From contig JAECRL010000011.1 of NCBI GenBank assembly GCA_016000265.1, positions 62,001 through 126,000 of the forward strand: a stretch of 64,000 nt of DNA, given 5' to 3'. Position numbers and translations under genes: made by a program. Positions 43,755-43,864 of this stretch are shown here, piece by piece. Every line of letters begins with the position of its first letter. Position 1 is the stretch's first letter. The notes under the pieces were generated by a model. It had not been told where the DNA came from. It did not search any database and was given only the letters and a program-made list of their open reading frames with translations. This DNA comes from Burkholderiales bacterium. Lineage in GTDB: Bacteria > Pseudomonadota > Gammaproteobacteria > Burkholderiales > Burkholderiaceae_C.

Positions 43755-43864
43755 GCTTCACCCACAGGAGCAGCAATTTGCTACTCCTGACTGCGCAAAC
43801 GCACGCCGGACAAGAGCTGGCGCCCATCTAACGTTTCAACCCACGCCACTCAAAAATTGGCGAG
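43755..43864 (-). ncRNA. Candidate cas-regulating crRNA-like RNA (divergent repeat - spacer - divergent repeat)
   Basis: Read on the minus strand, 43864-43833 is a divergent copy of the CRISPR repeat. It matches 20/32 positions overall, and the handle end (GCGTGGGTTGAAAC) is 14/14 identical. Its GC stem is replaced by a weaker one (CGCCA with TGGCG). A 41-nt spacer follows (43832-43792, starting GTTAGATGGGCGCC). Then comes a second, poorer repeat (43791-43755) with a 10-bp stem (CAGGAGTAGC/GCTGCTCCTG) and TGGGTGAAGC in place of the handle. The unit lies in the 5' leader of the cas5 operon. Processing by Cas5c would give one crRNA-like guide. CreA/CreR RNAs in other cas loci have this layout; the function here is inferred. 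Confidence 0.7.

Follow-up and report, generated by a model that had tools for sequence, protein, structure and literature searches.

A computational survey published in 2023 (Shmakov, NAR) reportedly found standalone repeats, mostly in type I systems, whose spacers partly match cas promoters. Published statements below are taken from parts of the reports cited. The Crispr-like regulatory RNA, CreR, has partial complementarity to cas promoter DNA and uses the system's own effector (PMC13131331, PMC12737573, PMC12948488), for which array crRNAs compete with it (PMC12737573); it has been named for types I-B, I-E and V-A (PMC13131331). Haloarchaeal type I-B CreTA systems have one or two degenerate repeats, a TTC PAM, and a seed at positions 1–5 and 7–11 with positions 6 and 12 free (PMC8501985, PMC9458426): changes at 6 or 12 had no effect on haloarchaeal CreA, and positions 1–5 and 7–11 and the TTC PAM were needed (PMC8501985). 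CreTA units of type I-F in Acinetobacter (PMC10097628) and of type I-E in Citrobacter rodentium (PMC12055562), the latter with a reported repressed toxin, lie in a gap of approximately 400–500 bp after cas3. For type I-C, Cas5 processes crRNA (PMC10651486), TTC functions as a PAM (PMC8406640), and deletion of cas3 alters genes in Porphyromonas gingivalis, crRNA being unmentioned in the part of that report cited here (PMC10949514). A full-text search, covering titles and the starts of abstracts and with Liu 2023 (Cell Host Microbe, on CreR) and Shmakov 2023 outside its scope, gave no report of CreR or CreTA in type I-C among the matches listed.

The unit described here lies in the type I-C locus of the window, by which we mean the whole 64,000-nucleotide stretch of DNA that was analysed. 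It resembles CreR in its partial match near a predicted cas promoter and in that no toxin was found in the window, and differs from it in belonging to a type I-C system, with crRNA processing by Cas5, and in sitting in the leader of the very operon that would be repressed. With haloarchaeal type I-B CreTA it shares the degenerate repeats, the TTC PAM and the seed layout, but the toxin gene that sits behind the target promoter there was not found in the window. Its position after cas3 recalls the Acinetobacter type I-F and C. rodentium type I-E units, which differ in subtype and in having a toxin.

The cas genes of the window are encoded on the minus strand in the order cas3, cas5c, cas8c, cas7, cas4, cas1 and cas2. 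The 255-nt gap between cas3 and cas5 contains, in order, a TTC-flanked site, promoter-like sequence, a degenerate repeat, a 41-nt spacer, a second degenerate repeat and the cas5 start. The first-pass annotation had reported a mini-CRISPR-like unit at 43755–43864 in this gap, in the orientation of the cas genes, and both the coordinates and the minus-strand orientation are exact. The features are as follows.

43980..46262, minus strand: cas3, the upstream gene (TIGR01596 and TIGR01587).
43972..43974, minus strand: TTC PAM of the target, shortly after the cas3 stop codon (read from the sequence).
43937..43971, minus strand: target, a 35-nt protospacer (spacer match; length inferred from array spacers).
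43897..43925, minus strand: predicted sigma-70-type promoter TTGACG-17-TACATT, for the unit and the cas5 operon (consensus call).
43833..43864, minus strand: psi-repeat 1, stem weakened and handle GCGTGGGTTGAAAC intact (comparison with the array repeat).
43792..43832, minus strand: psi-spacer of 41 nt with seed GTTAG-A-TGGGC (in loci L032 and L072, seed and target co-vary).
43755..43791, minus strand: psi-repeat 2, an 11-pair hairpin at 43789–43765 and degenerate handle TGGGTGAAGC (folding).
43050..43724, minus strand: cas5c, first gene of the run cas5-cas8c-cas7-cas4-cas1-cas2 (TIGR01876, 1.9e-53).
33030..38125, minus strand: CRISPR array, 77 repeats of 32 nt, array repeat GTCGCGCCCATCGCGGGCGCGTGGGTTGAAAC.

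Psi-repeat 1 (43864–43833, minus strand) reads CTCGCCAATTTTTGAGTGGCGTGGGTTGAAAC, and several properties ascribed to the unit beforehand were borne out: the 14 handle-end bases equal the last 14 of the array repeat, the stem is exchanged for a weaker CGCCA/TGGCG pairing (−6.5 kcal/mol vs. −14.7 for the array repeat), and the spacer is 41 nt long (43832–43792). The exact handle 14-mer occurs 78 times in the assembly (93% complete), 77 times in the array and once at psi-repeat 1, and the reversed 14-mer, used as a control pattern, occurs 0 times; a repeat-like sequence with the crRNA 5′ handle (14/14 bases) is thus present outside the array as its sole exact non-array copy in the assembly. On its own the psi-repeat 1 stem does not stand out from shuffles (z −0.91; 38 of 200 shuffles do at least as well), and when all 118 nt of the unit are folded the minimum-energy structure lacks it, its 5′ arm pairing with the far end instead. 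If Cas5 cuts psi-repeat 1 as in the array, the 5′ end of the processed RNA is predicted near 43843. For psi-repeat 2 the weak handle claimed earlier was found, while the hairpin, given as 10 bp, has one pair more: its 11 pairs, including one G·U, fold with z −5.45, and none of 200 shuffles is as good. Across the window, L032 and L072, 32 of 33 cells of this hairpin are paired (97.0%), with two A-U to G-C double changes and one non-pair in L072, a result that shuffles match often enough (69 of 500 as high) not to be significant alone. Pairs across relatives were counted in psi-repeat 2 only, because psi-repeat 1 of L072 has a shorter stem that MAFFT did not align correctly.

An Rfam search over 43000–47000 gave no match at the unit and one sub-threshold match elsewhere in the range. 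We rejected the possibility of an ordinary type I-C CRISPR array, which requires several near-identical repeats, since here a single spacer lies between two unlike degenerate repeats.

The first-pass annotation overlooked the target, a TTC-flanked site at 43974–43937 that follows the cas3 stop. The first 17 nt of the psi-spacer match it except at positions 6, 9, 12 and 13, so that 13 of the 15 bases outside positions 6 and 12 agree, as do 9 of the 10 seed positions (1–5, 7–11) next to the TTC PAM; the difference at position 9 would be a possible rG·dT wobble. The gap with 50 nt of flank on either side contains 15 TTC sites; against these, random 17-mers reached the seed score of the window with P = 4.4e-4, and none of 200,000 had 13 of 15 matches. 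The sole exact match to TTCGTTAGNTGNGC in the assembly is the target; the assembly holds no other exact target of the psi-spacer and one further site at one mismatch. This spacer–target pair, with its seed difference at 9 and others at 12 and 13, is weaker than most in the survey described below. A search of the array spacers against phage records to confirm the PAM gave no match.

TTGACG-17-TACATT is the sole promoter-like site in 43700–44050 (one found vs. a mean of 0.2 in shuffles). The protospacer stops 11 nt short of the predicted −35, on its upstream side and outside the core promoter, this promoter being a consensus call only; the C. rodentium type I-E target, which overlaps a predicted UP element, is comparable to this upstream position (PMC12055562, in the part cited).

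A search of 42 genomes of the genus, that of the window included, gave five with a Cas5 match at or below E 1e-40. In L032, whose Cas5 is 93% identical to that of the window, the handle (14/14), both promoter hexamers (6/6 each) and the target with its PAM (18/20) are kept; identity is 11/17 between the hexamers, 15/17 over the first 17 spacer bases and 23/33 in the tail that precedes cas5. Seed position 8 has changed from G to A in spacer and target alike. In L072 (Cas5 91%), which contains the whole stretch taken from the same-genus genome G796, the handle is kept at 13/14 and the promoter reads TTGACA-17-TATCAT. Its spacer is identical to that of the window at only 4 of positions 1–11 and at 20 of 24 of positions 18–41, and positions 1, 4, 5, 8, 10 and 11 have changed in both spacer and target, with the match kept each time. 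The distance from PAM to −10 is 72 in the window, 70 in L032 and 66 in L072, and all three have the target a short way upstream of the predicted −35. G781, the relative with the most similar Cas5 (95%) among the 42 genus genomes, lacks the unit as a block and has a cas3–cas5 gap of 48 nt; G765 (Cas5 50%), the fifth genus match, has a 71-nt gap with no handle. The unit, present in L032 and L072 and absent from G781 and G765, is therefore a discrete module, which some loci have and others lack. The expectation that handle and seed would be conserved in related type I-C loci holds for many of them and fails for others, G781 among them.

Degenerate repeats, a weak psi-repeat 1 stem and absence of the unit from G781 are what one might see in a decayed relic, a leftover array repeat whose spacer resembles nearby sequence by chance. 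Such a relic would leave unexplained that, between the window and L032, the handle (14/14), hexamers (6/6) and target with PAM (18/20) outlast the sequence between the hexamers and the tail, that seed and target change together, and that the arrangement recurs at near-zero control rates (below), and we regard this origin as extremely improbable.

Type I-C loci were then surveyed in samples that favour relatives of the window Cas5. The first set comprised the window and 40 loci of the same family: 55 of 399 genomes, its own included, had a Cas5 match, and 40 of the other 54 were used; those left out were one with an internal stop, one that was split and 12 with a weak match. The pattern was first noticed by eye in this set. 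The second set comprised the best 80 of at least 587 named loci, and is biased to relatives; 77 had both cas3 and cas5, and after removal of four duplicates of the first set the two together gave 114 loci. A cas3–cas5 gap above 95 nt was counted as long (43 of 114 loci; the other 71 are short). The handle was defined as the last 14 bases of a locus's own array, or a generic handle for loci without an array in the sequence used, with up to three mismatches and no more than one in the last eight bases; the mismatch limit shifted between passes, from 2 at first look to 4 and then 3. A third set of 23 loci (20 of 26 further matches and three from the genus search; 22 with a cas3 end) was examined under a looser rule.

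A handle was found in 28 of the 43 long gaps, against 1.3 expected from shuffles (maximum 3), and in none of the 71 short gaps, in which there is little sequence and 0.15 were expected. These amount to 29 handles, L130 carrying two, and a TTC target in the same gap was found at 0 seed mismatches for 15, at up to one for 22 (8 of 9 handles in the first set, 14 of 20 in the second) and at up to two for 27; for the five pairs at two seed mismatches, the control rate is 1.1–1.4%. Permuted spacers had a TTC target at up to one seed mismatch in 0 of 5558 cases and at up to two in 1.4%, shuffled spacers (5800) in 0.09% and 1.1%, and none of 11 other trinucleotides put in place of TTC served more than one of the 29 handles. 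Differences between spacer and target fall at position 6 in 18 of 22 pairs and at position 12 in 14 of 22, any other of positions 1–11 differing in at most 3. Furthermore, a PAM-free search of 33 loci (five of them from looser rules) gave a best match with up to one seed mismatch in 28, and TTC precedes that match in 25 of the 28. The permutation, shuffle, other-PAM and PAM-free tests, together with the handle expectation, rule out a chance match as the cause.

Spacer–target pairs were thus accepted in 28 of the 43 long-gap loci, 26 by rule (up to two seed mismatches) and two (L037 and L116) by relaxed search; the other 15 gave no accepted pair even with the relaxed search, six of them having poor two-mismatch matches judged to be chance. 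In the third set a pair was found in 6 of 10 long gaps and in none of 12 short gaps; two of the six are repeats of loci already counted, L171 being the same as L113 and L156 falling within the contig of L072. The survey counts are not fully independent, because L120 and L134, L113 and L170, and L116 and L130 look closely related by spacer. A handle alone is insufficient proof, with eight matches to the rule in 296,818 nt of cas8/cas7 coding sequence; under the looser rule (up to four mismatches) L046 has a handle inside cas8 with a one-seed-mismatch target within 1500 nt. Upstream of cas3 (up to 900 nt, 77 loci) no handle with a target was found. By scores without a control, the top promoter of 10 of the 25 loci drawn places its −35 within or at the target and its −10 shortly past the PAM; in the other 15, the genus of the window included, it lies elsewhere or is ambiguous. 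At the unpaired target position 6, 17 of the 21 loci with up to one seed mismatch carry A, where the A fraction of the gaps is 0.254 (binomial 1.5e-7, post hoc); the window and L032 carry T.

Sense orientation, the lack of a terminator-like site before cas5 and the stable psi-repeat 2 hairpin are also compatible with a mere element of the cas5 mRNA leader, in which hairpins serve Cas5 cleavage or stability and nothing is guided. The PAM-flanked spacer match and its co-change would go unexplained, however, and of the 26 loci with a pair, 7 have the unit antisense to cas5, so that we think a leader element of this sort very unlikely.

Taken together, the unit is with high probability a gene of the CreR type: a degenerate mini-CRISPR with a single spacer, placed in the cas5 operon leader, whose guide would lower transcription of that operon. 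The psi-spacer matches the control region just upstream, so the unit most likely makes a guide RNA that turns down the system's own cas genes. The earlier proposal of a cas-autoregulating guide is supported at sequence level by the conservation of handle and seed, the PAM-flanked target near the predicted cas5 promoter and the co-change of spacer and target. Handle, spacer, PAM, target, co-change between relatives and recurrence in type I-C support the CreR assignment, and on the testable sequence criteria the unit fits CreR. It would fit as a type I-C member of a kind of CRISPR self-regulation already known from other subtypes, and would extend guide-RNA autoregulation of cas genes to a type in which Cas5 cuts crRNA.

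We propose that the unit is transcribed together with cas5 from TTGACG-17-TACATT. No terminator-like site was found between the unit and cas5 in the window, and the guide would therefore be cut from the cas5 leader, with Cas5, the processing subunit of type I-C, cutting both psi-repeats to release a crRNA-like guide of approximately 79 nt. Cascade loaded with this guide would bind the TTC-flanked site upstream of the promoter, mainly through seed pairing, where it may come up against RNA polymerase at its upstream edge and against transcripts that continue from cas3; initiation would be lowered, and read-through from cas3 possibly blocked. The pairing is presumably too short to license cutting by Cas3. 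The would-be target of repression is the run cas5-cas8c-cas7-cas4-cas1-cas2, and by analogy with CreR, repression would be relieved when array crRNAs, here probably supplied by the 77-repeat array in competition with the psi-spacer guide, occupy Cascade, or when Cascade is inhibited. Such units can be recognised in many relatives, mostly Pseudomonadota, by a simple rule that asks for a handle in the cas3–cas5 gap and a TTC-flanked target. The prediction is that in these type I-C loci cas expression should rise upon Cascade inhibition.

The guide might instead be the CreA of a CreTA-type addiction module, repressing a toxin (a small RNA or protein) rather than chiefly the cas genes, so that loss of Cascade harms the cell. 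For the window we judge this unlikely. Small sense ORFs predicted to include a membrane segment occur in the gap of 14 of 31 positive loci, compared with 6.5% of mononucleotide-shuffled gaps and 0 of 31 in antisense, and in the published type I-E case, in the part cited, the cas3/casA gap contains a small ORF that is toxic (PMC12055562). In addition, inspection by eye of L072, a locus of the same genus, shows a mini-ORF, MVRHTIRRS, between the promoter and psi-repeat 1. Its ribosome site is strong and it carries AGG-AGA codons in tandem, reminiscent of the tRNA-sequestering CreT. Two AGA codons are described in haloarchaeal CreT (PMC8501985, in the part cited). In the window, by contrast, the predicted transcription start, near 43890, leaves approximately 26 nt before psi-repeat 1, and the gap contains no sense ORF of at least 38 aa and no membrane ORF, RNA toxins having been judged by eye only; an ORF search of the window thus found no toxin behind the targeted promoter, the arrangement by which CreTA/CrePA is recognised. 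A 29-codon sense ORF (43827–43741, minus strand) does start within the psi-spacer, but its ATG is missing in L032 and L072. No counterpart of the L072 mini-ORF was seen in the window.

Alongside the CreR reading of the window, we tentatively suggest a broader picture, somewhat less probable than not, in which the leader of the type I-C Cas5/Cascade mRNA yields its own repressor guide, Cas5 trims its own message, and the gap acts in Pseudomonadota as a slot switching between pure autoregulators (the window and L032) and addiction modules whose guide also represses a small membrane protein. The survey also points to unstudied small membrane proteins in the cas3–cas5 gap. The 14 loci with a predicted membrane ORF are L055, L069, L070 and L159 together with L042, L092, L095, L097, L098, L100, L113, L117, L120 and L170, the last ten having other small sense ORFs with predicted membrane segments. 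L055, L061, L069, L070 and L159 carry alike ORFs of 40–60 aa between the targeted site and cas5, with the pattern ELRLM/L ... P..R F/Y followed by a hydrophobic stretch; that of L061 is below the membrane-prediction threshold. A Pfam search of four of these five ORFs gave no match near the cut-off (best E 0.13); all five are candidate small toxins or accessory proteins.

Other contents of the gap were seen in a few loci. In L036 and L038 the unit is replaced by an ORF of 95–108 aa that is GIY-YIG-like by eye, with no Pfam match. L125, with a gap of 865 nt, has a HicA toxin gene (Pfam 3.3e-17) near a handle with a weak target (two seed mismatches), and the long gaps of L115, L116 and L130 contain ORFs that by eye resemble the antisense neighbour of this HicA gene.
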